From positions 62,001 through 126,000 of the forward strand of contig BQIV01000005.1 in NCBI GenBank assembly GCA_021604005.1: 64,000 nt of DNA, in the 5' to 3' direction. Below the pieces are notes generated by a model that was not told the origin of the DNA, did no database searches, and saw nothing but the letters and a program-made list of their open reading frames with translations. Shown here piece after piece: positions 13,212 to 57,851 of this stretch. Every line of letters begins with the position of its first letter. Position 1 is the first letter of the stretch. This DNA is from Nitrospirales bacterium. Lineage in GTDB: Bacteria > Nitrospirota > Nitrospiria > Nitrospirales > UBA8639. Position numbers and translations under genes: made by a program.

Positions 13212-13233
13212 TTTTTTCCTCTACGAACCACGG

Positions 13234-14664: not shown

Positions 14665-14681
14665 GCAGCCAAAATCCCTTG

Positions 14682-39460: not shown

Positions 39461-40463
39461 AACCCAACTCCAGACTCTGAACCTTCGCCGCATATCGCTG
39501 CCATGTTGGCCACGGATCAACATAGCCATGTACCGCCAAATATTCCATGGCTCGATCAGAGGGAATCCCATCGCTATCTTGCGGCCATCCACCCCCATCA
39601 AGAGTATTGGCAGCAAAGACAGCAAGTGTTGGCGTAACTCCAGGTAATTCAAGCCCCAGAGGATCATCGTGAAAGGCGACCGCATCAACAATAGCTTGCG
39701 GAAACATGTGGCGGCGAAGATAGGCTGCGCCAATACTGTCATGAGAAAGACCTAATTCACGAAATTCAGCTGTCGCGAGCGAAAGACCTTCACGCCTCGC
39801 CCGTGACATGATGCGCGTATAACAGTTGACATCAAGCGACAGGGCTAGTACGGCCAACCCAATATCATGGGAATACCCTGCCACACAGGATTGCCTAATC
39901 ACATCAGCATCTCCACGCTCGCCTTTGGCCAGAACCCCTGCCAGACACCCCGTACGGACACTATGCTTCCACAACACATCAACGCTCAGATGCTCTTCTT
40001 TCTGTTTCTCCAATGCAGCAAAGATTTGCGCGACAACCAGCAGTTGCTTCACCGTCTTCGTTCCCAACCACTCCATGCCGTGCTCAACCGTCTCGGGCAG
40101 AAAATCGAAGACTCTCCAGGTCGTCTCCAACAGTTGCATCACCTTGACTCGAATGTGCGCATCGCATGCAGTCCACATGGCATGGTAAAGACATGGATCA
40201 TCCAATAGAGACAGACAACCTTCATGGCGAAGGCGAGGATTCAGGTCAAACGATGGGGTATCGAAATCATGTTCCTTACGGCCATCCGTTGAGTTATCAA
40301 ACGGCCTAAGAAGGTCCCAGGTAAGCGTCCTGCCCAGCAAGTCAAAACTTCTCTTAAGTGGAATCAAATCCACCTCTTTTGGAATAACCCACAAAGACAT
40401 ATGCGAACCTTGCTCTTGAGGAGACACATGTTCAGTACACACAAGATGACGAGTCCACTTCAT
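39453..40463 (-). CDS. HDOD-domain signalling protein
   Basis: 336 residues with a C-terminal HDOD domain (about residues 130-310), a non-catalytic or divergent HD-related fold found in signalling proteins. Family-like segments are VKQLLVVAQIFAALEKQK, LWKHSVRTGCLAGVLAKG, VAGYSHDIGLAVLALSLD, REGLSLATAEFRELGLSHDS and VDAVAFHDDP. The first 100 residues match nothing I know. The ATG follows the stop of the upstream kinase-like gene directly (TAA then ATG), and its end overlaps the downstream receiver gene. The three are thus translationally coupled. Confidence 0.82.
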   Translation of the reverse strand: MKWTRHLVCTEHVSPQEQGSHMSLWVIPKEVDLIPLKRSFDLLGRTLTWDLLRPFDNSTDGRKEHDFDTPSFDLNPRLRHEGCLSLLDDPCLYHAMWTACDAHIRVKVMQLLETTWRVFDFLPETVEHGMEWLGTKTVKQLLVVAQIFAALEKQKEEHLSVDVLWKHSVRTGCLAGVLAKGERGDADVIRQSCVAGYSHDIGLAVLALSLDVNCYTRIMSRARREGLSLATAEFRELGLSHDSIGAAYLRRHMFPQAIVDAVAFHDDPLGLELPGVTPTLAVFAANTLDGGGWPQDSDGIPSDRAMEYLAVHGYVDPWPTWQRYAAKVQSLELGYA

Positions 40464-42233
40464 TTACGTACACCGCGGCTTTCGACCGACGCCGGCTCCA
40501 AGGGGAAACCGTACGATAAACGTCGTGCCATCCAAAGAGAGTGATTCAAATGAAAGAAGGCCTCCATGCGTATGCACAATGGTCGAATGTGCAAATGCTA
40601 ACCACGGACTCGTCTCTGCCCCCTCACGAGTGAGAGTCAAACTTCGATCACACACTTTCGAGGGGATGGCTGGAGGAACTCGTGTTCCAGTATCGGCAAT
40701 ACGAATTTCAACCCACTCGTGAGTCTTCCGCGTACTAATCGTAATAGTGCCTTTTTCTCCTGAATCATGTCGCAGTGACTGTTGAATCGCTTGTGCCGCA
40801 TGAATAATGAAATCACACCACACTCGAATTAATTGAGTTGGTGTGCCGAAAATCTGAGGAAGATCCCTCTCAAAATCTGTCTCAATGTCAGCGATATCCT
40901 TCCACTGTGTAGGCAGAAGACTTATCGCGCTTTGAAGCGAATGCTTCAGGTCAATCGTGACTTTTGCCTCTGGCACGTAATAAGACGACTCAGGGAGTGT
41001 GCCGACGAACTCCTTCACTCGGTCTGTTCCTTTCAGACTTTTCGTGAAGACGGCAGGGATCTCTTTTAGCAGGCCTTCAAAATCAATGTCGTTCATGACA
41101 CGTGAGACCGTTTCAGAAATGTGGGGATTCGTACCATTGACGTCAGGCTGCTGAAAAAGCTTGCCATACGCATCGAGAAGTTTTTTGATGTCGTGAAAAC
41201 TCGTCTCTAAAAATCGAATATTTTCAGCAATACGATGAACCGAAGACGTCATTGCCTCTGCCTGGTCAACGGCGAATGGACGTATCGACGTCATTGCCTG
41301 AGAACCCACAGGCGAAGCCGACAATCCCTTACCTGACTCGCAAACATATCCAAGCATCACAATACCTACAGGGGTATCGGTTTCACCTCGGATAGGACTC
41401 ACGGTCAAATCTACACTACGTTCTGTTCGCGACGGGTCAAGATATCGCAACGTTGGAACTCGGACAGGTTGCCGTTGTTCACGGCAATCCTGGACAGCAG
41501 TCATGAGAGTATCCCAATCCCATTGAATGTCGGTTAATTGAAGTGCATTTCCTAAAATTATTGAAGACGGAATTTCAAACATCTGTTCAGCCACGGTATT
41601 CCACCGAATGACACGATTGTTCTCATCAATGCCAATTAATATTGAAGGAATGGCCGTCACCAAATTTTCCGTTTCGGCCAGCACATGCCGCAGGGCCTGT
41701 TCGGCCTGACTACTGGACGCCACACGTTCATTCGCTCGATGGGCGACGCTCCACTTCGTTGTGAGAGAATCCGCAAGCTGTCGGACTTCGATCATGTCAA
41801 AAGGTTTGCGTAAAATGAGTATCTTTTCGCTATGCCCTAACCGATGCATGATCTGATCCCATTGATGATCTGAGTACGCTGTGCAGATCACCATCTGTAA
41901 ATCCGGATCCACCTTCCAGATATATTCGATCGTCTCAATTCCATCCCACCCTGATGGCATGCGCATATCGACAAAGGCCATTGCGAAGGGACGGTTTTCC
42001 CGTGCCGCCTTTTGAACAAGTGCCAACCCGATTTGACCTTGGTCGGCACACTCAATCTCATACCCTCCTGATGTCCCGGCATCTTGGCTCTCACCAAACA
42101 GTATTTTCTGGGCCTCCGCTAAACCGTCGCTCCGGGAATTACCTCCGAGAATCTTCCTGAAATCTTCATGTATGGCCTGATTGTCATCAATAATCAAAAT
42201 CCGTCTGTTCATGTCAGGCACGATGTCAGTCAT
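40464..42233 (-). CDS. REC-PAS-HATPase-like hybrid protein lacking a normal kinase core
   Basis: 589 residues. An N-terminal receiver (Asp16/17, phosphoacceptor Asp89 in AFVDMRMPSGWDG, Lys143 in ILRKPFD) is followed by a PAS domain (about 185-300, IPSILIGIDENNRVIRWNTV) and a helical plus HATPase-like region (about 340-580). In the latter the N-box asparagine is replaced (DFIIHAAQAIQ) and the G1 box reads ADTGTRVPP. I find no canonical HE-x-x-P phosphoacceptor box, so ATP-dependent autophosphorylation looks doubtful. The first gene of the REC-PAS / HDOD / REC operon. Confidence 0.82.
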   Translation of the reverse strand: MTDIVPDMNRRILIIDDNQAIHEDFRKILGGNSRSDGLAEAQKILFGESQDAGTSGGYEIECADQGQIGLALVQKAARENRPFAMAFVDMRMPSGWDGIETIEYIWKVDPDLQMVICTAYSDHQWDQIMHRLGHSEKILILRKPFDMIEVRQLADSLTTKWSVAHRANERVASSSQAEQALRHVLAETENLVTAIPSILIGIDENNRVIRWNTVAEQMFEIPSSIILGNALQLTDIQWDWDTLMTAVQDCREQRQPVRVPTLRYLDPSRTERSVDLTVSPIRGETDTPVGIVMLGYVCESGKGLSASPVGSQAMTSIRPFAVDQAEAMTSSVHRIAENIRFLETSFHDIKKLLDAYGKLFQQPDVNGTNPHISETVSRVMNDIDFEGLLKEIPAVFTKSLKGTDRVKEFVGTLPESSYYVPEAKVTIDLKHSLQSAISLLPTQWKDIADIETDFERDLPQIFGTPTQLIRVWCDFIIHAAQAIQQSLRHDSGEKGTITISTRKTHEWVEIRIADTGTRVPPAIPSKVCDRSLTLTREGAETSPWLAFAHSTIVHTHGGLLSFESLSLDGTTFIVRFPLGAGVGRKPRCT

Positions 42234-42667
42234 CGAAACACGATTCCTCTTTCTCCGATAATAAGACCCTTGAGGTCATGGAGAATCTTAAAAGTCCGTA
42301 TCCTTATTTTCTCGGTCGGACACCTGGTACTCTTGAATAGAGAACAGGGATTGCTTCTCCATTCCTACTCCGACAGATTCAGCCTTATCCAGCAAGACAT
42401 GAATAGGAAAAAGTCAGACACCATTCATCTTAGCCCTTTCTATGGGCAAGACTCGTGGGCATTAAGGGCGAAACCGACTCACCTACCGCTAACGTCATTC
42501 ACCATGACACCATTAATAAACCACTGAGAAATGCCGAAGACGAAGAGAGACACGTGTAGTCTCTGACTGAGAGAGTCGTACCCTCTGTACTCCACTTTGG
42601 ATAGCAGGACTCCACAACAATCATTTCCAGGTAGCGACATTCACTCATCACTACAGTCGAGGACATA
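42234..42667. other. Divergent promoter region between two signalling operons
   Basis: 434 nt between the minus-strand gene starting at 42233 and the plus-strand kinase starting at 42668. I see no gene, RNA or strong consensus promoter here; the short frames lack ribosome sites. It should hold promoters for both divergent transcripts. A GAGG ribosome site just before 42668 belongs to the kinase. Confidence 0.4.
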
Positions 42668-44215
42668 GTGACGAATTCCAGTACATCAGTATCAAAAGAC
42701 TGTACGAATTTGGACATTCTCAAGAATGTGCTGGACTCATCACCATTTCCGATGGTCCTGATCGATTCATACGGCACAATTGCCATGGCCAATTGGTCCG
42801 CAGAATCGCTCCTGTGCTATGAACCCCAACAACTGGCCGAACAACCCATTGAATCGTTGTTTACAACATTGGCGAATGCGACCACACATCCTCACGGCTC
42901 TTCTCCATTTATTCAACTTTGGCGAGGATCGTTAGAAAAACAACAAGAACTCACGGCATTACGGAAAGACGGCGACCAATTTCCCGTTGAAGTGACCTTA
43001 TATCCTCGCAAAACAACCGCAGGGCTTTATCTGCTCGTGACGCTCATTGATGCCACAGAACGAAAGTGGGCCAAAAGCGAATTCGACCGATTAAGTCTGC
43101 ATCAACAATACATCCTGCAGTCAGCAGGGGAAGGTATCTACGGATTAAATTTGAACGGCCAATTAACCTTTATCAATCCGGCTGGGGTGAACATGGTGGG
43201 GTGGAAGGCAGAGGAAATCTTGGGACAGCCGCAACATTCGGCATTCGATCATGGCCGTCTTGATACACCATGCCGCAACTCCGAGGCATGCCATATCGTG
43301 GCGGCATTCCGGGATAGCGCGATACATCATGTTGATGACGAAGTCTTCTGGCGAAAAGACGGTACCTGCTTCCCTGTCGAATACACCAGTACGCCTCTAC
43401 ACGATGAAACAGACAGAGTCATTGGGGCTGTGGTGACATTTCGTGATATCACACAACGCAAACTAATGGAAAAAGCCGATCATGACCTACGAGTCATGAA
43501 GGACGAATTCATTGCCACAGCCTCTCACGAACTCAAAACCCCCATTGCCTCGCTTCGAGGCTTCATGAAGCTTATCCTTCATGGAAAAGTTACCGATCCC
43601 GTTGTTCAACAAGAATTTTTGGCTCGAGCCAACCAAGATGTCGAGCGACTGCTTACGTTGATTCACAACTTGCTGGATACATCAAAACTTGAAACCGGAG
43701 TGAGTCAGTTTTTATTGGAAGACGTGGAACTGAAGGTTATGTTCACCGACACATTTGCAACCCTCGAGCCGCTTGCCAAGAATAAAGATATTCGCCTCCG
43801 GCAGGAATTACCATCCGAACCCATCTTCGTCAAAGTCGATCGACAAGCATTCCAACGCGTACTGGAAAACTTACTGAGTAACGCTATCAAGTTTTCTGAC
43901 CCACAGCACCCTGTTCTCGTGACAGCGAAACAGACCACAGATGAGACCGTGATTCACGTCATTGACCACGGTCCAGGGTTTCCTCAAGAGGAGGCCAATC
44001 GCCTATTCGAAAAGTTTTATCAGGCGAAAAGCCTCACCAAGCGAGCTGACGGCGGTTCGGGCCTTGGCTTATTTATCGCGAAAAAAATCATTGAAGGACA
44101 TGGCGGACAGATTTCAGTAGAAAGCACAGTCGGACATGGAGCCACCTTCACCATTTCCCTGCCGACTCGGGAAATCACAACATCGATGAACAATGAGGAG
44201 ATCTCTTATGACTGA
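42668..44215 (+). CDS. PAS-PAS sensor histidine kinase
   Basis: 515 residues, no obvious membrane helix, so probably a cytoplasmic sensor. Two PAS domains (about 20-130, opening SPFPMVLIDSYGTIAMANW, and about 145-270, GEGIYGLNLNGQLTFINPAG, the latter ending in a PAC-like VVTFRDITQRK). A classical HisKA box follows, FIATASHELKTPIASLRGF, with the phosphoacceptor His. The HATPase has LENLLSNAIKFS (N-box), HVIDHGPGFP (G1) and SGLGLFIAKKIIEGHGG (G2). GTG 42668 with GAGG 6 nt upstream. Its stop overlaps the next gene, so the two form a two-component pair. Confidence 0.93.
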   Translation: MTNSSTSVSKDCTNLDILKNVLDSSPFPMVLIDSYGTIAMANWSAESLLCYEPQQLAEQPIESLFTTLANATTHPHGSSPFIQLWRGSLEKQQELTALRKDGDQFPVEVTLYPRKTTAGLYLLVTLIDATERKWAKSEFDRLSLHQQYILQSAGEGIYGLNLNGQLTFINPAGVNMVGWKAEEILGQPQHSAFDHGRLDTPCRNSEACHIVAAFRDSAIHHVDDEVFWRKDGTCFPVEYTSTPLHDETDRVIGAVVTFRDITQRKLMEKADHDLRVMKDEFIATASHELKTPIASLRGFMKLILHGKVTDPVVQQEFLARANQDVERLLTLIHNLLDTSKLETGVSQFLLEDVELKVMFTDTFATLEPLAKNKDIRLRQELPSEPIFVKVDRQAFQRVLENLLSNAIKFSDPQHPVLVTAKQTTDETVIHVIDHGPGFPQEEANRLFEKFYQAKSLTKRADGGSGLGLFIAKKIIEGHGGQISVESTVGHGATFTISLPTREITTSMNNEEISYD

Positions 44216-45356
44216 CAGGATCATGATCGTTGACGATGAACCAAACTTTTTACGCATGCTTGAATTCACCCTGCAGTCCGAAGGGTACGAGGTCGTCACG
44301 GCAGAAACAGGAAGGGAAGGCATAGAGAAGATTCAAGCTGCACAACCTCATCTCGCCATTCTTGATGTTTCATTACCCGATATCAGTGGAATAGAACTGT
44401 GCGAGCATCTTCGTCAAGACCCAAAGACCGTTGACATTCCAGTCATCATGTTAAGCGCTCGCTCACAAACATACGATAAGATTAAAGGGTTACGGGCTGG
44501 ATCTGACGAATATGTGACGAAACCCATTGATCCGGAAGAAATCGTCGCACGAGTCGAAGCTCTGCTGAGTCGCAGCCGTCACTTACGGCAATCAAGTGCT
44601 GCATCAATGAAAAAAGGGAAAATTTTTGCGTTCATGGGGAGCACCGGTGGAGTTGGGGCCACGACCGTCGCACTCAACATTGCCGCCGCGTTGAGCCAGC
44701 GATCCCCTGATACCGCGATCATTGAATATCGACCGTACACGGGAACCACGGCCCTTCAACTTGGCATGACGCCAGAGCGCACGCTAGGAGACCTTCTCGC
44801 TCTCGAGACTGATGATATCACACATCAACACCTTGACCGGCATTTGTCTACCCATGCCAGCGGCATGCGAGTGCTCTGTGCATCACAATCTCCGCAGGAA
44901 TATCGAGAGCTTCTCCCTGATCATACGGAATCCATTCTGCAAGGGTTAGCGGAAATCATGGACTATTCCATTCTTGACTTACCCTCAATACCGCTTGCCG
45001 TCTTGCCAACGGTTCTTCAGCATTGTCATGTCTTGTCTTGCGTCATTGAACCAGAACCCATCTCGCTCGCCTGCGCTAAAAATCTCATGCAGTTACTACA
45101 AGCATGGGGAAATACTCCCATTCGTGTCGTGCTCGTCAATCACGGACGCTCCTCTTCAAGTCTTTCGCTTTCAGAAGTGAAACGTCAACTCAACTGTGAA
45201 ATCCTGGGCGTGATGACTCCCGCCGCCGAACTGTGTGTGAAAGCCTGTAACACACAAACACCTGTCGTCCTCTCCCATCCCAATAGCCTCGCAGCCAACG
45301 CCCTCCTTGAAATGACAGATCGACTCGTCGAAGAGCATGTCATGGCGCTCGCATAA
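44208..45356 (+). CDS. Receiver fused to a CpaE/MinD-like ATPase domain
   Basis: 382 residues. The receiver (1-120) is complete: IMIVDDEPNFLRML, Asp in LAILDVSLPDISGIEL, Ser/Ala switch VIMLSARSQT and EYVTKPIDPEE. The second half is a CpaE-type MinD/ParA relative (KIFAFMGSTGGVGATTVALN). The Walker A lysines are missing (STGGVGATT instead of KGGxGKT), more degenerate than usual CpaE, which keeps the first lysine. CpaE proteins place pilus or Tad machinery at the pole; no pilus genes are nearby. ATG 44208, overlapping the kinase as ATGACTGA, after GAGGAG. Confidence 0.88.
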   Translation: MTDRIMIVDDEPNFLRMLEFTLQSEGYEVVTAETGREGIEKIQAAQPHLAILDVSLPDISGIELCEHLRQDPKTVDIPVIMLSARSQTYDKIKGLRAGSDEYVTKPIDPEEIVARVEALLSRSRHLRQSSAASMKKGKIFAFMGSTGGVGATTVALNIAAALSQRSPDTAIIEYRPYTGTTALQLGMTPERTLGDLLALETDDITHQHLDRHLSTHASGMRVLCASQSPQEYRELLPDHTESILQGLAEIMDYSILDLPSIPLAVLPTVLQHCHVLSCVIEPEPISLACAKNLMQLLQAWGNTPIRVVLVNHGRSSSSLSLSEVKRQLNCEILGVMTPAAELCVKACNTQTPVVLSHPNSLAANALLEMTDRLVEEHVMALA

Positions 45357-45384: not shown

Positions 45385-46638
45385 TTACTGTCGAGTAAAC
45401 CAGACCCAGACAATCATTTCTTGCCGAACATTTGGAGGGAGTGGATCACGAAGCAAGACTTTTACGGGATGGGCAAGTTGAGGAAGGTGCGATGGAGAGC
45501 GAGCTTTATCGGGACCGACGCGAAAGATATCCTCTGTTCTTCGTTGAGAGGGGTAAAGCATCGCAACATAGCCCTCCAAGTAATCATCTGACACACCTTT
45601 GATTTTGACCCATGCTTCTTGGTCTGGGGAAATTTCGGAAAAGACGTCACCTTCAACATACGCCTCTGCCCACACTTCTTTCGGATCCATCAGACCGACG
45701 ACGGTGTCGTTATGATCCACGACTTCTCCTACGGTCCGTGGCAACCATGACACAATACCTGCCTGTGCAGCCGTCACCTCCAATTCACTCAACTGCGACC
45801 TCACAGACTCCACATCCGCCTCCGCTTGCTGAACATCTAAACGAAGCAGAGCAAGATTATTTTTCGTTTTTTCCCGCTCATGCCTGTACGCTTTCAGTTC
45901 TTGATCCCAAAGAGCCTTCGCCCCTTGCATCGCGGCCGCCGCCTTGGCAAGACGAGCTTCAACAGCCAGAAATTCAGCCTGAACCGTCTCAAATTCCAAC
46001 GTGGACTGCTCCCATTCTCCAATAGTGAGTGCTTGAAGAAGGTACAGGCGCTTGGTACGATCCTGGACTTGTTGCATGTGCTCGAAATTGATCCGCGCCT
46101 TATCAAGATCTGCTTGCGCTTCGTGATATTCGTGGCGAGCAACAGTATAGTGTTCCTCACTTTGAAGGAGATGCATGCGAGAGGCTGGATCTAAACCAAT
46201 GCTCTCAAATAGTCTCAAACGAGCACGAGCCTGTTCTTCAGCAGCTTGAACCTTCTTCAGTTCGCTTTGTATCTCCCAGTCATCAAGTTTCACTAACACC
46301 TGCCCCTGTTTCACGGTGTCACCCTCTCGAACATGAATCGACGCCACTCGCCCTTTCAGAGGTGAGGTAATATAGGCCTGTTGGAACATCATGCGACCTG
46401 TCGTCATGATCCACTGCGACTCCCAATACCAGTAGCCCATCCCAGCAAGGAGAATAAGGCCAAGCACGACAAAGAACCAATGTCGAGGATTCATTTTTCG
46501 AGACACAGATCGCTGGAGGACATGAGAAGATGCCGAAGAAGAAGCCGTATCAGACTTTGTAGGCGAAGGCTGATCGATTGGAGGCGAATCGACAAGAGGC
46601 GCCGGGGAAGTTGGGTGATTGCCATTACGAAGTCGCAT
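45385..46638 (-). CDS. HlyD-type periplasmic adaptor (membrane fusion protein)
   Basis: 417 residues. A proline-rich cytoplasmic start of about 50 residues, one membrane helix (WFFVVLGLILLAGMGYWYW), then a half-lipoyl motif (GRVASIHVREGDTVKQGQVL), a long hairpin of coiled coil (about 135-275, rich in Gln, Glu and Ala), the second half-lipoyl (GIVSWLPRTVGEVVDHNDTV) and a beta-barrel domain (EAWVKIKGVSDDYLEGYV). This is the inner-membrane-anchored adaptor that joins a TolC-like channel. No ABC or RND pump lies nearby; its operon partner is a polysaccharide synthase. ATG 46638, 70 nt after the TolC-like gene. Confidence 0.9.
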   Translation of the reverse strand: MRLRNGNHPTSPAPLVDSPPIDQPSPTKSDTASSSASSHVLQRSVSRKMNPRHWFFVVLGLILLAGMGYWYWESQWIMTTGRMMFQQAYITSPLKGRVASIHVREGDTVKQGQVLVKLDDWEIQSELKKVQAAEEQARARLRLFESIGLDPASRMHLLQSEEHYTVARHEYHEAQADLDKARINFEHMQQVQDRTKRLYLLQALTIGEWEQSTLEFETVQAEFLAVEARLAKAAAAMQGAKALWDQELKAYRHEREKTKNNLALLRLDVQQAEADVESVRSQLSELEVTAAQAGIVSWLPRTVGEVVDHNDTVVGLMDPKEVWAEAYVEGDVFSEISPDQEAWVKIKGVSDDYLEGYVAMLYPSQRRTEDIFRVGPDKARSPSHLPQLAHPVKVLLRDPLPPNVRQEMIVWVWFTRQ

Positions 46639-46708: not shown

Positions 46709-49093
46709 TCATAACGCGACGAGTGCCTCGGAAAGCAAAAGCCGTTGGTACCGGCGATAATCATGTATGGCAATCCCGAACGATTCAACCTCACCTGAAA
46801 GTTGAGTGTGAATGTGTTCACCAAGACCTTGCCATTGAAATTCCATACTCCGATCAACGTCATCCGATGTCGCAATATGGCGTGGATCGGCACTCACGCC
46901 AACCCATAGTCGTTTCTGGTGACGTTTGGCATAACCAATTTCATCCTGAAGCGCTTTTACAATTTTCCGAGGATGATCGTGATAGGCCATAACCGCCACG
47001 TCATCGACACGACTCCACACCGCCTCCATCAACGTCCCGTTCTCATACGATTCCTTATCAAGCCAGGATGGAATATCAACAACCAGAGGTAAGGCTGCCG
47101 ACGCAGTCATGTGATGAGCCCAGTCAAAAAAGTCCACGTATTGCATGATGAGAGCTTGACGGTCCGAGGTATCCCATTCCGGCAACGTATAGGGCTCGAC
47201 ATCAAGATGAATGGCATCAAATCTGGCATCGTCATGCTGTTGATTATAGTGAACGATGCCTTGAATAAATTCATGAGCCGCTTGTCGGCCTTCAGGCAAC
47301 ACCCATGAAGGGTCTCCATTTAACGCATGAACATGCAATCCATTCTGGTGCGCTTGCGTGATAAAGGGCTTGTAGAGATCAGAGGCATCATGTATCCGAT
47401 TTTTTGAAACGGAAAGAAAGATCGTTTGGATGTTCCGAAGCTTCACAAAATCTAGGAAAAACTTGCGTTGCTCGCGATTGTCTAAAAAGTCTGGCTGCCA
47501 AACCCACAAGGCTCGATCAAACAAGGCAGTTGGTGGAGCCGACGGAAGGATGCGCATGTTCGACGACTCTTTCACAGGGAGAAATTCCATGCCCTGCAAA
47601 CTCAATCCACTGGAGTAGCGTAAATCCAACGTTGCCTGCTGAATGGCCAAGTGTTGGGTCGCCTCCTGTTCAACGGTCTTCAAGTAATTCATCCGTGCCT
47701 CAAGAAGCGTCAAGCGATCCTTCGCCTTTCCCAACCGTTCCTGCTCTTCCAAGATATGTAGTTCTTGTTGGCGATGTGTTTTTTCAGCTCGAATCCACTT
47801 GAGGGTAGCATGAGCACTCCGAAGATCTTCATACGCCGTGACGACATTGACCGTAATTTCTCCCTGGAGACGGCTCCACTCCATTTCAAGCACATCGATA
47901 AAGGCCTGCTCTCGATCAGATCGTGCTCGCTGTAGCGGCCAGATCAAAAGCGGTGCGCTGATTCGCGCTCCTAAGGTAAATCCTTGAAAAAATCCGCCTC
48001 GCCTTCCGCTCCCCCCCGCCCCATACGATCCTTGCAAGTCAACACGAGGAAGCGACCAGAATGTTTCCCGTTTCGTCGCATAGGCTTGCTGAATATGAGC
48101 AAGGGCTTGAACCAGCTGCGGATGTTGCTCATTGACTGATTGAATCACTTCTTCAATCTGACCTGGGGTGTCAACGACAAGCGATTTATGCTCATACGCA
48201 ACGTCCGAAGTTCCCGTTTGGCCCATTACACTCTTGAGGGTGTAGTGCGCGATAGAACGGCGGCTCTTGATCGTTGCGATCTCTTCACGAAGGTCTAACA
48301 CGTGATCACGGAGTCTGGGGATATCCCGAGGCGACTGGCGACCATGATTGACAAGCAAAGCCCCCACACGCTTCGACTCCAAAGCCAACACCAACGCCGA
48401 CTCTTTCAGAGGCAAGAGACCCTCGGCATTGAGAAGCGTCAGATATTCGGACGCGGCACGACGAAGCACAGCCGCCCGCACATCACTATACTGGGCAATC
48501 GCTGCAATCAAATCCTCCTCAGCCTGGCTCATCCGCTCAGCTCGTTTGACAATTCCATCGATAATGGATTGCGTCAATCGTACAAAGATGCCGCTTGGGA
48601 TAAACCGTGTAAGCACACTGAACTCAGGGGTAAAGCTGACGTTGGCCTCTCGTAATTCAGCTCGCGCAGCAATGACGCGAAAAAGGGCTTGTCGAATTTC
48701 CGGATTTTGATACTCGACAATTTTCAGCAATTGCTCAGGAGACATCGAAGAGAACGAAGAAGAGATGTCTGTATTACGCAACGGGTCTTCTTCGTCTGTT
48801 GAGTCACCACGTTCTTGATGAATCGCATCAAGTAAGTCCTGCGCACGTAAATCACGCACATCAGTGGGTTCGACTTGATAAAGAAGCTCAGCCGCCTGCA
48901 TCAACTCACCTTGCGCATAGGCCATCAGCGCTTGATCAAAAAGCGCCACACCAGGCGAAGGGACTGGACGAGAAACACCAACGGTCGAACAGCCCTCTAA
49001 CAGCAACAAGACAAAGACTACCCAGAAGACCTGCCTCCAGATCGTGTTGAGCGTGTTCACTCTAGGGTCTTGGATAGAATACATCTTTTTCAC
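46709..49093 (-). CDS. Lipoprotein fusing a TolC-like outer-membrane channel to a GH18-like TIM-barrel domain
   Basis: 794 residues in three parts. Residues 1-35 are a lipoprotein signal ending LLEGC (Cys35). Residues 45-95 are a short helical-repeat segment. Residues 120-500 follow the outer-membrane efflux protein pattern: QNPEIRQALFRVIAARAELR, AAVLRRAASEYLTLLNAEG, FFQGFTLGARISAPLL, DREQAFIDVLEMEWSRLQGE and VVTAYEDLRSAHATL. Residues 520-794 look like a TIM-barrel glycosidase: FDAIHLDVEPY (Asp626, Asp631, Glu633) matches the GH18 DxxDxDxE signature except for one His, and VAVMAYHD (702-706) matches the GH18 MxYD strand. I know no described TolC-glycosidase fusion. It starts 5 nt after the GT2 stop. 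Confidence 0.85.
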   Translation of the reverse strand: MKKMYSIQDPRVNTLNTIWRQVFWVVFVLLLLEGCSTVGVSRPVPSPGVALFDQALMAYAQGELMQAAELLYQVEPTDVRDLRAQDLLDAIHQERGDSTDEEDPLRNTDISSSFSSMSPEQLLKIVEYQNPEIRQALFRVIAARAELREANVSFTPEFSVLTRFIPSGIFVRLTQSIIDGIVKRAERMSQAEEDLIAAIAQYSDVRAAVLRRAASEYLTLLNAEGLLPLKESALVLALESKRVGALLVNHGRQSPRDIPRLRDHVLDLREEIATIKSRRSIAHYTLKSVMGQTGTSDVAYEHKSLVVDTPGQIEEVIQSVNEQHPQLVQALAHIQQAYATKRETFWSLPRVDLQGSYGAGGSGRRGGFFQGFTLGARISAPLLIWPLQRARSDREQAFIDVLEMEWSRLQGEITVNVVTAYEDLRSAHATLKWIRAEKTHRQQELHILEEQERLGKAKDRLTLLEARMNYLKTVEQEATQHLAIQQATLDLRYSSGLSLQGMEFLPVKESSNMRILPSAPPTALFDRALWVWQPDFLDNREQRKFFLDFVKLRNIQTIFLSVSKNRIHDASDLYKPFITQAHQNGLHVHALNGDPSWVLPEGRQAAHEFIQGIVHYNQQHDDARFDAIHLDVEPYTLPEWDTSDRQALIMQYVDFFDWAHHMTASAALPLVVDIPSWLDKESYENGTLMEAVWSRVDDVAVMAYHDHPRKIVKALQDEIGYAKRHQKRLWVGVSADPRHIATSDDVDRSMEFQWQGLGEHIHTQLSGEVESFGIAIHDYRRYQRLLLSEALVAL

Positions 49094-49098
49094 AACAA

Positions 49099-50406
49099 TT
49101 AATGTAAAGGGACTTGCTGCCTAACCTTCTCAGGGGCAAAGGGATCGTGATACGACGTTCGGAAAAATATTTCTTGAACGCAGGCGACAATCCGAACAAT
49201 TTTTTCAATAATCCGATACAGCACCATCCCAGGTATGACGCTGATCAATCTCCAATCTGAGGCAAACCGTCCGGAGACTTGTAATGCAATAAGAATCTGA
49301 AGGAATTTTGCCGCACTGAACATAATCAGATTGATGACAAAAATGACGATGTAATTATGATGTTCGAACAACATGAGCTGAATCATGTAGACAAGCCAAA
49401 TTCCAGCCAGTCCAACAGAAAATGCTAAGGTATCCAGAAACGACACAATATTCTGCACATTGAAATGATCACTGTAGATATTAAACGTGTCTCGATGCTT
49501 TCGAATCCGATTTCTAATGATATTGCGATTCCAACGTAACCGCTGACGAACCCATTTCTCCCATGTAAGCGGAGCGTTCGTTAAGCAAATCGCCTTCGGG
49601 GCAAAGGCAACCTGTTTCCCCATTTTCCGAATCCGAATCGTTAAATCCGAATCGTTGCCTGGCCCCGGTTCGTGCCAACCAACGCGTTCCACCAAAGATC
49701 GGCGAAACGCACCGAAAGCACCCGATACAATCCCAAGGATTCCCATACCTGCTCGAAACTGCCGTCCCACGGTGATTCCACAGAGGTATTCAAATCCCTG
49801 AAGACGGGTGAGAAGGTTCGTATATAAATTTCTGACGCCAACATTCCCACCAACGGCACCCACATTTTCATCTTGAAATGGTTGTAAAATATGTCGAATA
49901 GCTCGGCGATCAAGCGACGAGTCCGAATCCATGAACACAAGATAGTCACCCCGCGCCACACGGCACCCATAGGTTAACGCCCCAGATTTCCCTTGCCGAT
50001 TTTCCATCGGAAACAAACGAATAGCCCCTTCTGCAGCCAATTTCCTACAGATATCTAGGGTATGATCTGTGGATCCATCATCAACCACGATAATTTCGAT
50101 ATTGGGATAGTCTTGTTCCTGTAAAGAACGAACAGACGCTTCGATCGTTCCTCCTTCGTTTAAGACCGACATGATCACCGAAACCTGGGGGGGAGGTTTC
50201 GTCGGACATGGAAAGGGCTCGCATACCTGCTTTTGAAATGATTTGCACAAGACATAGACATCAACAAACAGGTATCGATTAAGTTCAATTAAAAAAAAAG
50301 GCCAAAACAATCCAATTAAATGCGGCAAGCCTGAATGGAGAATTTCGTGCAACCCATCATCAAAATCAATGAAGAACCGCTGCAATTCTATGACGATGAC
50401 TTCCAT
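49099..50406 (-). CDS. Processive family 2 glycosyltransferase (exopolysaccharide synthase)
   Basis: 435-residue membrane GT2 of the hyaluronan/chitin/PNAG-synthase type. An N-terminal hydrophobic region (PHLIGLFWPFFLI) precedes the catalytic domain: VSVIMSVLNEGGTIEASV, IIVVDDGSTDHTLD (Asp109/110), FMDSDSSLD (DxD at 160-162), GPGNDSDLTIRI (Asp in the third acidic motif) and QRLRW (288-292), the QxxRW signature of processive synthases. Three hydrophobic segments follow (about 325-420). It lacks a PilZ domain, so c-di-GMP control, if any, must act through a partner. The sugar donor cannot be read from the sequence. Flanked by the degenerate GGDEF-like gene and the channel gene. Confidence 0.92.
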   Translation of the reverse strand: MEVIVIELQRFFIDFDDGLHEILHSGLPHLIGLFWPFFLIELNRYLFVDVYVLCKSFQKQVCEPFPCPTKPPPQVSVIMSVLNEGGTIEASVRSLQEQDYPNIEIIVVDDGSTDHTLDICRKLAAEGAIRLFPMENRQGKSGALTYGCRVARGDYLVFMDSDSSLDRRAIRHILQPFQDENVGAVGGNVGVRNLYTNLLTRLQGFEYLCGITVGRQFRAGMGILGIVSGAFGAFRRSLVERVGWHEPGPGNDSDLTIRIRKMGKQVAFAPKAICLTNAPLTWEKWVRQRLRWNRNIIRNRIRKHRDTFNIYSDHFNVQNIVSFLDTLAFSVGLAGIWLVYMIQLMLFEHHNYIVIFVINLIMFSAAKFLQILIALQVSGRFASDWRLISVIPGMVLYRIIEKIVRIVACVQEIFFRTSYHDPFAPEKVRQQVPLH

Positions 50407-50427: not shown

Positions 50428-51522
50428 CTAGACAGAAGGTTCCGAGGAACCAAGCGCCAACCTTTCTTCCTCCTGGACTTTCGTCCAGACGAGTTGAATC
50501 ATCTGATCTGCGCTTTCAATGTCTGTTGAAAACACACTCCATCCCATCGCCATATGGATAATAGAGCCAAGCTGTTGAAGCGAACGCTCTCGAATATGAC
50601 TGCGTATGCGTTCTCCGATATCAATCGCGTGATCTTCTATCGTCTCAGGCAACAACAGAACAAAGTTTTGCTCTTGATAGATCGATACAATATCGCAGTC
50701 ACGGCTCAACTCTTTGACCCACGTTGCCAAAGACTTCAAGACATTCCGCACCGCATCCGTTCCACCTTCCTCTTCATATTGTCCGAGGCAGTCGGGACGC
50801 ATCATCAATATGGAAAATGGACGATCATAGCGAGTCGCACGATGAATCTCGCGAACCAATTGTTCTCGGAAATATTGAAATGTATACAGTTCAAGGCCGT
50901 GATCGATGACAAGCATGCCACCTTTTTCACCATAGATACTTTCTTGAGATGCAGCCAAAATCCCACGTTCCGTTAACTGATAGGCATAAATTCTTTCAAT
51001 AAGCGCTCGATCAACATGAAACGATTCCCCGCAAGCCAGCGAGAGACACGAGGTCACCGCCTCAGGGAACAAGGCCGCACACGCGTGACACCGGAAATTG
51101 GTGGAGGCCCGTTCATAATCAACTCCGAGATGACGAAGTTGGTTCTGACATTTCGGGCAAATTAATTGCGTTCCCTTATGAAACTCATCTTCGTACGATA
51201 AATATCCACAGGCGTAGTGATGGAGCATTTCGACCAACTCGATATGATGACTTGAGCAGTCCGGACACGTTTCCCGGAAATTTAAGGCGAAATGCTTACA
51301 CGATGGGCAGAGGTGAACCTTGTCATGTAATTCCCGTTTAAACAATCCCAAATCAACAAGCTCATTCAGCACATCGAACTCCTGCCCAATTGGCACCCGT
51401 AGCGTTTCATGAGCCTCGAGCACTTGATACCCTATTGGAGAGTCGATGCACGGCACCGGCACAAGCTTGTCCACCTGTTTCTCAATCATGAAATGTAAGA
51501 GATGAATTCGTCGATCACTCAT
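50428..51522 (-). CDS. Zinc-ribbon protein with degenerate GGDEF-like C terminus
   Basis: 364 residues. The first half is rich in CxxC pairs: HLCPSCKHF, ETCPDCSSH, LICPKCQNQL, FRCHACAAL and later a CLSLACGES pair, forming several zinc ribbons; the layout recalls TackOD1-type metal-binding output domains. The second half follows a GGDEF fold: FREQLVREIHRATRYDRPFS, then ILMMRPDCLGQYEEEGG. The signature itself is lost (DIVSIYQEQNFVLLLPET, with YQEQNF in place of GGDEF). It cannot be an active diguanylate cyclase but might bind a nucleotide or a partner. ATG 51522, with an AGGA ribosome site abutting a 9-bp hairpin. First gene of the polysaccharide operon. Confidence 0.82.
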   Translation of the reverse strand: MSDRRIHLLHFMIEKQVDKLVPVPCIDSPIGYQVLEAHETLRVPIGQEFDVLNELVDLGLFKRELHDKVHLCPSCKHFALNFRETCPDCSSHHIELVEMLHHYACGYLSYEDEFHKGTQLICPKCQNQLRHLGVDYERASTNFRCHACAALFPEAVTSCLSLACGESFHVDRALIERIYAYQLTERGILAASQESIYGEKGGMLVIDHGLELYTFQYFREQLVREIHRATRYDRPFSILMMRPDCLGQYEEEGGTDAVRNVLKSLATWVKELSRDCDIVSIYQEQNFVLLLPETIEDHAIDIGERIRSHIRERSLQQLGSIIHMAMGWSVFSTDIESADQMIQLVWTKVQEEERLALGSSEPSV

Positions 51523-51530
51523 AATGAATC

Positions 51531-51555
51531 CTGTGTAGTCTTTCAAACTACACAG
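51531..51555 (-). promoter_or_regulatory. Perfect 9-bp inverted repeat abutting the ribosome site of the polysaccharide operon
   Basis: CTGTGTAGT (51531-51539) and ACTACACAG (51547-51555) are perfect reverse complements around a 7-nt loop. On the minus-strand transcript the 3' arm ends in the AG of the AGGA ribosome site, about 8 nt before the ATG at 51522. It could be a translational hairpin or an operator for a dimeric regulator. Confidence 0.6.
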
Positions 51556-51864
51556 CCTATGCGCTCATCATGCGTTTGTGGACTACGTTCAGGACGCAGT
51601 CACTGTGTACGCATGGGGAGCCCCTAAGACAAAAATATTGAGGAAAAATAAGGCTTTCGTTCCTGTTCTCGGAACACAGAAGACGAAACTTAAGAATTGG
51701 CAGCTATTTCCAGGGTCTCTCAACTAGTCATTCTCTGTTTACGAAGACCGTTAGACGAATTGCCATAAGCCTCGCTCTGTCCTATCCTCAGATATATTGG
51801 GTAGATATGTTCACACGACACTCAAAGAATGAGTGCGACTTCACCCTTAACTCGGGAGGCTAGG

Positions 51865-52764
51865 ATGGCCAAGAAATCATTAAGGGCAATTGTCATAATT
51901 GGCCTCGTTACGTTGACCCTACCAATATCCGCTTCAGCAATTACCTTAGACTTCCAAGGTGCGTTTGATTTTGACGGCGCCGATGGTATTGCGTTCAACC
52001 CGACAAGCGGAAACCTCTTTCTGGCACAAACGTTTTTTGATATTAACGATGATGCCATTCAAACCAGAGTTGTCGAAGTTACGACCTCTGGAACAGAAGT
52101 CTTAACGTTTAATCCTGAATTGCATGGCTTGACCGATGTCCAAGGGCTCAGTTTTCTTCCAAGCCCAAATGCAAATTTGCTCCTTACTGAACAGGACACT
52201 CCTCAAGGCGGGGTGTTGGAATTTACAACGACAGGCGATCCAGTTCCACTCGGCATTAACTTTTCGACGCTCCCGACGAGTGACGATGGCGATGGAGTCA
52301 TTTTTCATTCGGGAACAAACACGGTATTTATCGCCGATGACTTGACTGAAAGCATTTACGAATTCAACACCTCGGGTGGGCTCCTAAACACTATTTCGAC
52401 TCCAGGAATTCTTCCAGACTTCATTGATCCTGAAGGCATCACCTTTGATCCGGAAACCGGCAACTTGTTGGTCGTCGACGCCGTCGCAGGCACAAGAAGT
52501 CTCTATGAATTGACAACCGCCGGCGCACTCGTCTCGTCTGTGGATTTAGAGGCCTTAACCGGATTCGCTGACCCTGAAGGCGTGACAATTGATCGAAGCA
52601 CAAACACGCTCTATGTCGCCTTCGATCGTGATGATAAAATTGGAGCCTTTTCGATACAGCCAAGCCAGCCAGTCCCAGAACCCAGCACCGGATGGCTTGT
52701 TGGGCCAGCGATCGCAGGGCTTTTAGCTTGGAGAATACGTCAAAGGAGAAGATATATCGCCTAG
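51865..52764 (+). CDS. PEP-CTERM sorting-domain protein with an NHL/SMP-30-like propeller
   Basis: 299 residues. Signal peptide KSLRAIVIIGLVTLTLPISA, then propeller-like repeats (GIAFNPTSGNLFLAQTF, GITFDPETGNLLVVDAV, GVTIDRSTNTLYVAFD). It closes with a PEP-CTERM tail: PVPEPSTGW, a hydrophobic segment and a basic end RIRQRRR. Exosortase recognises such tails in bacteria that make exopolysaccharide. No exosortase gene is seen in this window. The start is ATG 51865, with GGGAGG upstream; an earlier in-frame codon at 51829 would add 12 residues and mask the signal. It is divergent from the polysaccharide operon. Confidence 0.88.
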   Translation: MAKKSLRAIVIIGLVTLTLPISASAITLDFQGAFDFDGADGIAFNPTSGNLFLAQTFFDINDDAIQTRVVEVTTSGTEVLTFNPELHGLTDVQGLSFLPSPNANLLLTEQDTPQGGVLEFTTTGDPVPLGINFSTLPTSDDGDGVIFHSGTNTVFIADDLTESIYEFNTSGGLLNTISTPGILPDFIDPEGITFDPETGNLLVVDAVAGTRSLYELTTAGALVSSVDLEALTGFADPEGVTIDRSTNTLYVAFDRDDKIGAFSIQPSQPVPEPSTGWLVGPAIAGLLAWRIRQRRRYIA

Positions 52765-52837: not shown

Positions 52838-54745
52838 TCATACATCGGGAGGCATGGCAACAGGCAAGGTTAAGATAAATATTGCTCCGCATCCTTCACC
52901 ACCGCTTCGCACATGCAGCGACCCTCCCATGTTTTTGGCCAAGAGGGCCCCGCTGTGGAGGCCAAATCCATGACCGTCTTTCTTGGTCGTAAAGCCTTGA
53001 GAAAAAATATGCGTCAACTGACCAGGAGGAATTCCTACGCCTGTATCCGCAACTTCGAGTTGGACCATACTCCAGTCACGTGCCGCTGGCCCAATTCGAA
53101 CTGTGAGTATTTTTCGTGGGCTCTTCTGCATCGCTTGGGTACTGTTACGTATTAAATTCACTAAAATTTGTAACGTTTGATGCTTATCGACCATCACTTC
53201 TTCTGTGTTGACAAATTCCCGCACAATTTCTCCACCCAATTTCTCTAAGAGCACCTTATTGATCGTCAAGGCTTGCTCCATGAGGTCAGCCAACATCACG
53301 GGTTCATGCAGGCCTCCAGCCTTGACCATACCTTGCTGCATCGCCACACATTGCTTCGCATGCTCTGCACTCTCCACCAATGACTCCAGTTCATGGAGCG
53401 TCACCTGCTGCTCATCGATCAGATGGTCCGCTAACTGCGCAAGATAGCCTGGAATCTGCCGGCCTTTCGGATCGTGAGACACATAGGCATTGAGATCATC
53501 CATGTGGGTATTAAGCATGTGTGAAATTTTCCGCACATCGCCCACAAGGGATTGCCGTAGCGTCGTCCCCATGATTCCCACAGAGACATTAATACTGTTC
53601 AGGACATTGCCCACATTATGAAGTACGCTGGTCGCCACATCGGCCATACCTAGGCGACGAGAGGTCTCAACGAGTTGATCATGAAACTGCCGCCGCTCGT
53701 TTTCGAGACGCTTGCGTTCGGTAATGTCGTGCGCCACACACACCAATCCCTGTATCACGCCTCTCTCATCTTTCATGAGGGAACCGGACAGTGCCATGGG
53801 GATCGACTCGCCATTTTTGGCAAGATACGTCGTTTCAACATTACTGACCACCCCCTGAAAATACAACGCTTCCATAATAGGGCCTTGCGTCAATTCTTCG
53901 CCAAAGATCTTACTCGGACATTCCTCCAACAACTCGTCTTCTTCGTAGCCAAGCAACATCAATAACGAGCGATTCACCGCCTCAATGGTCATATTCGCAT
54001 TAATCACCAGTAACGTATCGGCCATGGATCTGATGATGTTTTCCATATGAGTCTTAGCGGCGGAAAGCTCATCTTTCGCTTTCGCCAGTTCACCATTCTT
54101 TCGCGCTAAATCTTTGGCTGTCCCCCCATACATTCCCTCATTCCTTTGACACTCACGAGCATGGACCGCGCCAGCATGTCCTTCGTGCAACGGCAGCGAT
54201 TGTTCATCAGGAATGGGGCACTCACCATCGAATTGGGGGCTTCTGCATTGAGAGAGGCACCATTTGTGCGTCAGAACCATAGCCATTTGAAAAACATCGA
54301 TCGCGTGAAATGGCTTACGCAACACTAAGAATTGTTCTCGATGTGTCCCTTCTTCTATCTCGACATCCGACACATGCTCCACACTGTCCGTACAGAGGAC
54401 ACATTGAAGCAAGGGGTCAACGTTCAAATATTGTACAAGCATGCGTCCTGCCGACCACTCTGACATCGCATTCAGATCGATAAATACAACCGCAAAGGGA
54501 CAGTTGGCTTCCACTGCGTGTTGAATCATGGCGATGCCGGCCTCGCTACATTCCACATTGTGTATGTCAAAACTTGGCCAACGGGAGAAAAATGCAGGAG
54601 TACGCAACGCCGCACCATTGGGCTGTGAACGATGTACCGAATCCGCGATCGGTGTCTGATCCAACATTTGACGAACATCCGAAGAAAAGCCCGGATTGTC
54701 ACCGACAACCAATATTCGGCTTCTTATTCCTTGCAGAACGTTCAC
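52838..54745 (-). CDS. Hybrid histidine kinase with a degenerate N-terminal receiver
   Basis: About 635 residues: receiver, coiled coil, PAS and kinase. In the receiver the acidic pair is partly lost (RILVVGDNPGFSS), though Asp in VVFIDLNAM and Lys in LRKPFHAIDVF remain. The PAS domain opens IIRSMADTLLVINANMTIEA and ends VCVAHDITERK. The H-box is of the HNVGN type, ATSVLHNVGNVLNSINVS. The HATPase has LVNLIRNSTQAM, ADTGVGIPPGQLTHIFSQGF and HGFGLHSGALLAKNMGG. Start uncertain: GTG 54745 has AGGGGG 8 nt upstream, while an earlier GTG at 54784 would add 13 residues. Downstream partner of the single-domain receiver at 54,804. Confidence 0.9.
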   Translation of the reverse strand: MNVLQGIRSRILVVGDNPGFSSDVRQMLDQTPIADSVHRSQPNGAALRTPAFFSRWPSFDIHNVECSEAGIAMIQHAVEANCPFAVVFIDLNAMSEWSAGRMLVQYLNVDPLLQCVLCTDSVEHVSDVEIEEGTHREQFLVLRKPFHAIDVFQMAMVLTHKWCLSQCRSPQFDGECPIPDEQSLPLHEGHAGAVHARECQRNEGMYGGTAKDLARKNGELAKAKDELSAAKTHMENIIRSMADTLLVINANMTIEAVNRSLLMLLGYEEDELLEECPSKIFGEELTQGPIMEALYFQGVVSNVETTYLAKNGESIPMALSGSLMKDERGVIQGLVCVAHDITERKRLENERRQFHDQLVETSRRLGMADVATSVLHNVGNVLNSINVSVGIMGTTLRQSLVGDVRKISHMLNTHMDDLNAYVSHDPKGRQIPGYLAQLADHLIDEQQVTLHELESLVESAEHAKQCVAMQQGMVKAGGLHEPVMLADLMEQALTINKVLLEKLGGEIVREFVNTEEVMVDKHQTLQILVNLIRNSTQAMQKSPRKILTVRIGPAARDWSMVQLEVADTGVGIPPGQLTHIFSQGFTTKKDGHGFGLHSGALLAKNMGGSLHVRSGGEGCGAIFILTLPVAMPPDV

Positions 54746-54803
54746 GCCACACATCCCCCTCTGAATCGATCCAGAAATTGACACATTGCGACATTTGCCA
54801 TAC

Positions 54804-55289
54804 CTAATTCAGGTGGACATGTTTGACGCGCTGCAGATTGTGCACAGGATGCCCCTTTGACCAGTATTTCGTTAATCCCTGCATAAGCTCTAAATATCCA
54901 TCTAAACTATTGGGTTTGGTCACAAACGAGTGGGCTCCCAAGTTATACGCACTATCGATATGTTTGGCAACGCGTGAGGTCGTTAATACCAACACAGGAA
55001 TATCCTGCAACGCGTGATCAGATTTAATTTCGACCAGTGCAGAGCATCCGTCTTTTTTGGGCATGTTCAAATCCAAAATAATCAGGCCGGGACGCGGTGA
55101 GGTTACCGGATCACCATAGGTCCCACGATGCGTTAAATAATTCATCAGCTCTTCGCCATCATGAACGAACCGCAATTCCTTTCCGAGTCGGCATTCATCC
55201 CAAGCCGCCTGGGCAACTAAACAGTCATCCGTGCTATCATCCGCCATTAACACAATGAAGGGAACGGCTTGCATACAAGTACTCATCAT
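54804..55289 (-). CDS. Single-domain response regulator (Rcp1-like)
   Basis: 161 residues, a stand-alone receiver. Acidic pair in FIVLMADDSTDDCLVAQAAW, phosphoacceptor in LIILDLNMPKKDGCSAL, switch Thr/Ser in VLVLTTSRVAKHID and Lys in SFVTKPNSLDGYLELM. The insert ELMNYLTHRGTYGDP is typical of Rcp1-type receivers that work with phytochrome-like and hybrid kinases. ATG 55289 has AGGAGG 5 nt upstream. It lies upstream of the 52,838 kinase (58 nt gap), so they probably form one operon. A c-di-GMP riboswitch lies about 410 nt further upstream on the same strand. Confidence 0.92.
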   Translation of the reverse strand: MMSTCMQAVPFIVLMADDSTDDCLVAQAAWDECRLGKELRFVHDGEELMNYLTHRGTYGDPVTSPRPGLIILDLNMPKKDGCSALVEIKSDHALQDIPVLVLTTSRVAKHIDSAYNLGAHSFVTKPNSLDGYLELMQGLTKYWSKGHPVHNLQRVKHVHLN

Positions 55290-55700
55290 CACACCCTCCT
55301 TTTTAACTCATGAAATCTGGTCGTCCGAGATTCAATCATGTGCGTGTGTTGTCGATAGGTTTTCTCCCACTACCCTTCTCCTTTACACACTGGCTTTGTT
55401 GCATGTCTGCATGCAACTCGGACTTCAACACGGAATAATTATGAGACAAGACAACTTTGGCATGAACATATTGTGATAGTGGAATAATAGGGTCAGCCCA
55501 TGATACGCGCTGCTCATTGTGGCAAGTCATACGACTGTTGCCCAAAGCCGAGTCCACGTTAAGGAGATTGCAACCAGGATGGAGAGAGCGGTCTATCGTC
55601 TAGACTGAGCAAGGATAGGAAACTGGAGGGAGAAGCGCGAGACTCCAAGGTCTTCGCCTATCACGTCGATAAACGCAAGAGATCTTGACGCTTCAGAGAC
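55290..55700 (-). other. Long spacer between the c-di-GMP riboswitch and the receiver gene
   Basis: About 410 nt with no convincing gene. A 73-codon open frame (55336-55557) lacks a family or a good ribosome site. I find no clear intrinsic terminator immediately after the aptamer; a CTATC / GATAG inverted repeat lies near 55591-55620. Either this is a long leader of the receiver mRNA or it hides a small RNA or peptide that is the true riboswitch target. Confidence 0.35.
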
Positions 55701-55800
55701 CAGTGTGGCGGCCAGGCGAACCCCGGGAATATCATGATCCCAACTCAGGTCCCTTAGCTTTGCGTCTTACCTTCTCAGGTAGTTTGCCCTGTGCACCCTG
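55701..55800 (-). promoter_or_regulatory. Cyclic-di-GMP-I (GEMM) riboswitch aptamer
   Basis: The minus strand carries the invariant GEMM-I core: CACAGGGCAAAC (GGGCAAA at 55789-55783), a short hairpin TACC / GGTA, then GACGCAAAGC (55766-55757) and the closing AGGGACC segment. The second helix holds a GGGA / TCCC hairpin and ends with GGTTCGCCTGGCCGCC, equivalent to the consensus GCCRGGYUGCC region. The outer stem also forms: CAGGGTG (55800-55794) pairs with CACACTG (55707-55701) with a single mismatch. This aptamer class binds c-di-GMP to switch downstream expression. It points towards the receiver/kinase genes at 55,289-52,838. Confidence 0.9.
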
Positions 55801-56090
55801 TTGTCTCTTGTATCGGCAATCTACACGATTTCTTGAGGAGAACATTCGTCAAAATTGTCTATGCGCAGCAGGACTTATGCCACAACCAGACACCTTCATC
55901 ACTCAAGACTATCGCAAATCCACATACGGTCCAAACAGGAATATACGATGAACTCCGCGCGGTACCGCCTGAACGTAAGGAAGGTTATGCCCGCCTGTAT
56001 GACCTGCAGGCGATTGACGGTTCGGGAAATCCGGATTCAGTGCGACGACATGCAGATTCGGCATAACTGAAACGGCTATAGCATGTATGA

Positions 56091-57599: not shown

Positions 57600-57851
57600 A
57601 CTGAGCCGCCTCCGTTCTGAATGCAAGATTCAGAGTCAAAGGGAATTTCTCGTTATCACCATGTTTGCCCGTTGGTGACCCCATGCGGCATCTGACGTAG
57701 ACCCAGAGAACAGCACAATACAGACCAACCCCACGGGGTTGCATTCCGATTACACTTGAGTTTCGCAACGCCAGAATCTTGCACTCTGCACCACACACAA
57801 GTAATTTAACGATACGGAGCCGTTCGTCAACACATGAGAAGACCGCTGCCG

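Follow-up and report, generated by a model that had tools for sequence, protein, structure and literature searches.

What hydrolases do inside the machines that export exopolysaccharides is an open question. In the window, the whole stretch of 64,000 nucleotides from a Nitrospirales bacterium that was analyzed here, this question is raised by a gene on the minus strand (46709..49093) encoding a 794 aa protein in which a TolC-type channel is fused to a putative hydrolase. Because channel and hydrolase are present 1:1 in such a fusion, the hypothesis that the polymer is cut at the entrance to the channel can be tested directly. The earlier note on this DNA, made from the sequence alone, described the fusion but omitted the HlyD gene, the gene for a TackOD1/degenerate GGDEF protein and the conserved four-gene system, which together are the larger finding.

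The reading frame had been described as one without a stop, and this was confirmed: it runs uninterrupted on the minus strand from a GTG at 49093, with an alternative ATG three codons further in, and contains zero internal stops. At the local base composition, the computed probability of a stop-free stretch of 794 codons is about 1e-16. The source genome is distributed over 92 contigs, which could speak for a frameshift, a misassembly or a chance open frame, but proteins of the same fusion length are found independently in three other genomes (see below). Homologues and stop-free probability together rule out a chance frame or misassembly. We give this explanation virtually no chance and regard it as refuted, and the fusion and its operon are almost certainly genuine.

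The channel part comprises residues about 116-496 (47606..48748, minus strand) and belongs to the OEP/TolC family, as had been proposed: it matches Pfam OEP (PF02321) with an E-value of 3.4e-28 and 99.2 bits at a cut-off of 22, in two stretches of which the best spans residues 314-496. Cys35 (48989..48991, minus strand) lies in a possible lipobox, LEGC, whose Gly-Cys is also present in the homologue of Nitrospirae bacterium J017. Since the glutamate at position -2 is atypical, lipidation at Cys35 is only likely. Residues 47-95 (48809..48955, minus strand) presumably form TPR-like helices, as suggested by the sequence pattern and by AF2 helices with a pLDDT of about 55-70; Pfam gave no TPR match in this stretch. 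A full-length AF2 model of the fusion based on a two-sequence alignment was poor (pLDDT 44), and for this reason we infer the domain arrangement. The C-termini of TolC-family proteins are periplasmic and do not, as had been stated, end near the barrel strands; therefore, the domain added C-terminally is expected to sit in the periplasm.

The last 275 residues of the fusion (520-794; 46712..47536, minus strand) yielded zero Pfam matches. When modeled separately by AF2 with two sequences, they gave eight alternating strands and helices (pLDDT 74, pTM 0.79), and Foldseek comparison of this eight-stranded barrel with solved structures returned TIM barrels, among which GH20 and GH18 proteins were prominent, though not alone. 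The top match was a GH20 protein (E 2e-6), and the chitinases 4wiw, 5jh8, and 6k7z were also returned. The TIM-barrel-like domain postulated from the sequence thus holds up; the Foldseek result settles the predicted fold of residues 520-794, not their family. In the PDB, entry 10yv_A from Cellulomonas fimi was matched over most of the domain, with an E-value of 3e-9 for the single sequence and 1.7e-23 for the family profile, which also reached the GH18 chitinase 5xwf (E 0.001). Entry 10yv was deposited as 'putative GH97' yet aligns with the GH18-related family, so its name may be wrong. The top fold match of the barrel in BFVD was a giant-virus protein, A0A3G4ZKF2 of Terrestrivirus (TM 0.79, E 2e-13, 15% identity), and a search for sequence relatives in viral contigs and phages found none.

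Over 12 diverse members of the barrel family, W532, A590, G593, D631, E633, P634, P675, D697, M702, Y704, and H777 are near-invariant. They include the ends of three barrel strands: strand 4 ends in the catalytic-type motif D631-V-E633 (47195..47203), strand 6 (residues 698-703 in the model) in M702-A-Y704 (46982..46990), and strand 8 in His777 (46763..46765), all encoded on the minus strand. The positions of D631 and E633, where strand 4 ends in the model, and of Y704, just past strand 6, match the layout of GH18. The segments FDAIHLDVEPY (residues 625-635) and VAVMAYHD (residues 699-706) had been likened to the GH18 motifs DxxDxDxE and MxYD. This is correct for the last Asp and the Glu (D631, E633) and for M702-x-Y704, but the second Asp is replaced by His629, giving D626xxH629xD631xE633, i.e., DxxHxDxE, and the family does not conserve the Asp of MxYD. 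Similarly, the designation as GH18-like agrees with the layout of the active site but not with curated membership: the fusion protein has no match to PF00704 (GH18), only two of 11 relatives do, and a full-length relative from the genome G080 scored 26.7 bits at a cut-off of 29.6. Because of His629, the lost Asp of MxYD and the small share of relatives reaching Pfam GH18, we classify the barrel on the basis of sequence and model as GH18-related, from an unnamed family, and not as GH18 proper. Kinship to PgaB (GH153) was not detected, as no PgaB occurred among PDB profile matches up to E 10 and there was no family match.

With His629 present and the Asp of MxYD not kept, catalysis could differ or be lost. 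As judged from the motifs, the barrel probably does hydrolyze the polymer made by the operon. GH18 and GH20 enzymes use the N-acetyl group of their substrate, and for this reason the kept D-x-E and Tyr favor a 2-acetamido-sugar polymer as putative substrate. The accompanying statement that GH18 includes deacetylase relatives is not upheld; deacetylases are not known from this family.

The fusion gene is part of a four-gene operon on the minus strand (51546-45385) with the order TackOD1/GGDEF-like, GT2, fusion, and HlyD, the genes being 21, 5, and 70 bp apart. A promoter and terminator scan over the operon region gave results no better than shuffled sequences. The first gene (50428..51546, minus strand) encodes a 372 aa protein composed of a TackOD1 domain (residues 10-191, Pfam 6e-44) and a degenerate GGDEF domain (1.6e-12), which we propose to be a c-di-GMP receptor controlling the synthase. 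Its GGDEF signature reads QEQNF and is missing in all its orthologues; a function as active diguanylate cyclase was rejected because a GG(D/E)EF signature is absent. The protein has an RxxD motif resembling an I-site, R282-D285 (50692..50703, minus strand), which is invariant in three Nitrospirota orthologues and reads RPSD in the fourth, that of G080. All four Nitrospirota copies retain RxxD but have lost GGDEF, which is the motif pattern of PelD; in alphaproteobacterial triads RxxD is lost from the TackOD1 protein.

The second gene (49099..50406, minus strand) encodes a 435 aa GT2 synthase (Pfam GT2 5e-37) with the intact motifs VDDGS, DSD, and QRLRW and directly adjoins the fusion gene, in accord with the linked GT2 mentioned earlier. 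Its nearest NCBIfam equivalog is PgaC/IcaA (TIGR03937), matched with an E-value of 5e-50 and 170.7 bits, far under the cut-off of 422.3. This PgaC/IcaA-like character supports an amino-sugar polymer, suggested before as a possible substrate, as the likeliest one. The last gene (45385..46638, minus strand) codes for a 417 aa HlyD-like periplasmic adaptor (HlyD_D23 8e-15 in Pfam; RND_mfp 7.6e-23 in NCBIfam, below cut-off). Genes for GT2, HlyD, and a TolC-type channel are therefore linked in one operon-like run, as for Xcs-type export, which supports the presumed export role, and synthase-dependent polysaccharide export by the operon is likely. Divergent from the operon (51829-52764, plus strand) lies a gene whose NHL/SdiA-regulated-like product carries a PEP-CTERM sorting signal and might belong to the same matrix as a surface protein. 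The regions flanking the operon (38294-45356 and 52838-57626) are densely occupied by genes for histidine kinases, response regulators, and HD-type and HDOD proteins.

The domain order and the linked GT2, for which a homologue search had been recommended, were both found in Nitrospirae bacterium J017 (RFGF01000011.1; L017 = L052), together with the gene order. Its fusion homologue is full-length (36% identity over residues 34-791), and the four genes follow in the same order with identities of 43% (TackOD1), 58% (GT2), 36% (fusion), and 40% (HlyD). In the search of genome contigs, the single protein as query gave no match and the two-sequence alignment gave only J017. Two genomes of other families, G080 and G197, encode proteins of 769 and 714 aa whose C-terminal part is again this barrel, and genes for HlyD, TackOD1, and GT2 lie alongside. 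For the N-terminal parts of these two proteins, Pfam OEP, hhalign to the OEP part of the fusion and a PDB search were all without match; by eye, position and pattern suggest that they are TolC-like. The window genome, J017, G080, and G197 thus all carry TackOD1/degenerate GGDEF, GT2, a protein of channel-hydrolase length, and HlyD. Among 296 sampled genomes of the phylum, TackOD1 was present in three, the same three of the sample that carry the fusion (chance 2e-7 if genomes are independent).

The barrel also occurs in other surroundings. In seven loci of another family of the phylum (f3: L019-L023, L059, L060), it is part of a protein of about 550 aa (343 aa in L019), whose gene lies between those for a different GT2 (28-31%) and for a neighbor of about 600-800 aa. 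The neighbor tested, that of L020, combines TPR with a YaiO-type outer-membrane barrel. By their gene content, these loci appear to be a second, Pga-like export cluster with the barrel family. Since the barrel lies there beside a GT2 and a TPR/outer-membrane barrel protein, it tracks polysaccharide export even though the channel type changes. At L018:9893-11803 (G005) the barrel follows a weak CBM30-like region and is adjoined by genes for a sodium:solute symporter and a GH3 protein; this is possibly a catabolic relative. On plasmids of Methylocystis iwaonis, TackOD1, GT2, HlyD-like protein, hydrolase, and TolC are encoded by five separate adjacent genes, and the hydrolase is a secreted single-domain barrel (FDGLHFDVEPNAVPDW). 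One lineage has channel and hydrolase fused, another has their genes side by side; therefore, both belong to one process. A plasmid search with the G080 fusion gave no match. Single-domain barrels are also present on Bacillus, Priestia, and Paenibacillus plasmids (L091:5890-6792, L092:4872-5792, L094:5995-6804), where they are annotated as 'amidase' or hypothetical, a label at odds with the sequence family.

We favor the view, with a probability of about 0.6, that the four genes encode a c-di-GMP-gated, synthase-dependent exopolysaccharide system using a GT2-HlyD-TolC route and a channel-tethered periplasmic hydrolase. In this system, c-di-GMP would bind to the RxxD motif of the TackOD1 protein and thereby activate the GT2. 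The precedent is PelD, whose degenerate GGDEF domain binds c-di-GMP through RxxD and so triggers Pel synthesis (PMC8461298). The GT2 would polymerize an activated sugar, probably an N-acetylated amino sugar, and the chain might pass from the GT2 via HlyD into a trimeric TolC-type channel, around whose periplasmic belt three barrels would hang. These would hydrolyze the polymer, presumably by a substrate-assisted mechanism of the GH18 type, and the cutting could serve chain release, length setting, or clearance of misrouted polymer. Systems with a separate periplasmic hydrolase include BcsZ, PgaB, PelA, and AlgL. For BcsZ, AlgL, and PgaB, roles in release, length control, or clearance have been suggested (PMC5933820). 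By the fusion, one hydrolase would be fixed to each channel subunit, a job that elsewhere, as in Methylocystis, a separate periplasmic enzyme might do.

The replacement of a GH18 Asp by His629 and the unkept Asp of MxYD would also fit a barrel that does not cut but acts as a polymer-binding guide, holding the chain in the periplasm and feeding it to the channel; the C-terminal domain of PgaB was likewise first described as PNAG-binding and critical for export (PMC5933820). We consider such a guide doubtful, as an acid pair is rarely kept so strictly in pure binding domains and the 12 diverse relatives, some of which are secreted single-domain proteins without a channel, hardly vary at D631, E633, M702, and Y704. 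The secretion of the Firmicute homologues, one of them annotated as 'amidase', would fit yet another reading, namely local cleavage of peptidoglycan by the barrel, which would open the wall for the assembly of channel and adaptor. Tethering of a wall-cutting enzyme would account for its fusion to the channel, and the GH18-like spore-cortex enzyme SleL, which acts on peptidoglycan, is among the fold matches at rank 38. Ordinary TolC systems, however, work without such an enzyme, and the barrel gene accompanies polysaccharide synthases both in Nitrospirota, even with another kind of channel, and in Methylocystis, which makes wall cutting unlikely.

The exported substrate itself might also be something other than a polymer. 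HlyD and OEP proteins are used by many exporters, and the HlyD of the operon resembles RND/EmrA adaptors, so that efflux or type I export of a small molecule or protein could be envisaged, with GT2 and hydrolase modifying a lipid-linked or secreted glycoconjugate. We regard this as very unlikely, since no ABC, MFS, or RND pump gene is located between or beside the four genes and the processive-type GT2 is the sole inner-membrane partner seen in the operon.

Among known systems, the Xcs model of cyanobacterial cellulose export resembles the operon in its tripartite route of GT2, HlyD-like XcsB, and TolC, which has been proposed but is unproven (PMC12430437; Maeda et al., 2018). The Xcs gene set has a separate glucanase, XcsC, whereas the hydrolase of the operon is channel-fused and GH18-related, and the synthase of the operon is PgaC-like and lacks PilZ. 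The Xcs genes of Thermosynechococcus lie apart from each other and the Xcs model is hypothetical, whereas in the window all parts are encoded in one operon. With its parts encoded together, the operon offers a compact test case for the GT2-HlyD-TolC route. With the Pga system for PNAG it shares a PgaC-like GT2 and an export-linked TIM-barrel hydrolase (PgaB, GH153), but it lacks the PgaA porin, PgaD, and a deacetylase domain, and its barrel has no detected sequence kinship to GH153; of the two acids of the D-E pair, the second is missing in PgaB (PMC5933820). Common to Pel and the operon are a degenerate GGDEF/RxxD regulator, an operon-encoded hydrolase, and an outer-membrane channel. PelD, however, has GAF and membrane helices where the operon regulator has the zinc-ribbon-like TackOD1, and Pel uses GT4 and a TPR-barrel porin instead of GT2 and a TolC-type channel. 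A c-di-GMP-activated GT2 with an HlyD-like partner, as proposed for the present operon, is known from the two-gene operon for rhizobial mixed-linkage glucan, BgsB-BgsA (PMC9495663; PMC5567048), but BgsA binds c-di-GMP at its own C-terminus, and no TackOD1, hydrolase, or channel gene is described in the Bgs operon. GH18 chitinases and 10yv share with the fusion the TIM barrel, the acid pair past strand 4, and MxY past strand 6; the barrel differs from GH18 by DxxHxDxE and the lack of a Pfam GH18 match and forms a different family. This unnamed family of putative hydrolases may act on biofilm polymer.

The TackOD1 domain (PF18551), with conserved CXXC motifs, is known from archaeal response regulators and its function is obscure (PMC5847659). 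In the operon, the same domain with its CXXC motifs is tied to a polysaccharide synthase instead, which suggests a function for this orphan domain. In open-access papers, no description of a TolC-hydrolase or TackOD1-synthase system was found, and the TackOD1-GT2-HlyD class behind the operon is possibly previously undescribed. Slightly short of an even chance, in our estimate, is the broader proposal of a widespread undescribed class, ranging from Nitrospirota to alpha- and gammaproteobacteria, of c-di-GMP-gated TackOD1/degenerate GGDEF, PgaC-like GT2, and HlyD, whose most integrated form would be the new GH18-related hydrolase family fused to a TolC-type channel, with three cutters per channel. 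A GT2 of the operon's kind was located directly next to TackOD1 in all 15 bacterial plasmid records that contain TackOD1, followed by an annotated HlyD gene in five inspected loci and by a hypothetical protein in others. Many of the bacterial TackOD1 triads examined have no hydrolase alongside. The link between TackOD1 and GT2 may reach archaea: on the Halorussus halophilus plasmid NZ_CP044524.1 (~13233-15693), matches to both lie within 1.5 kb.
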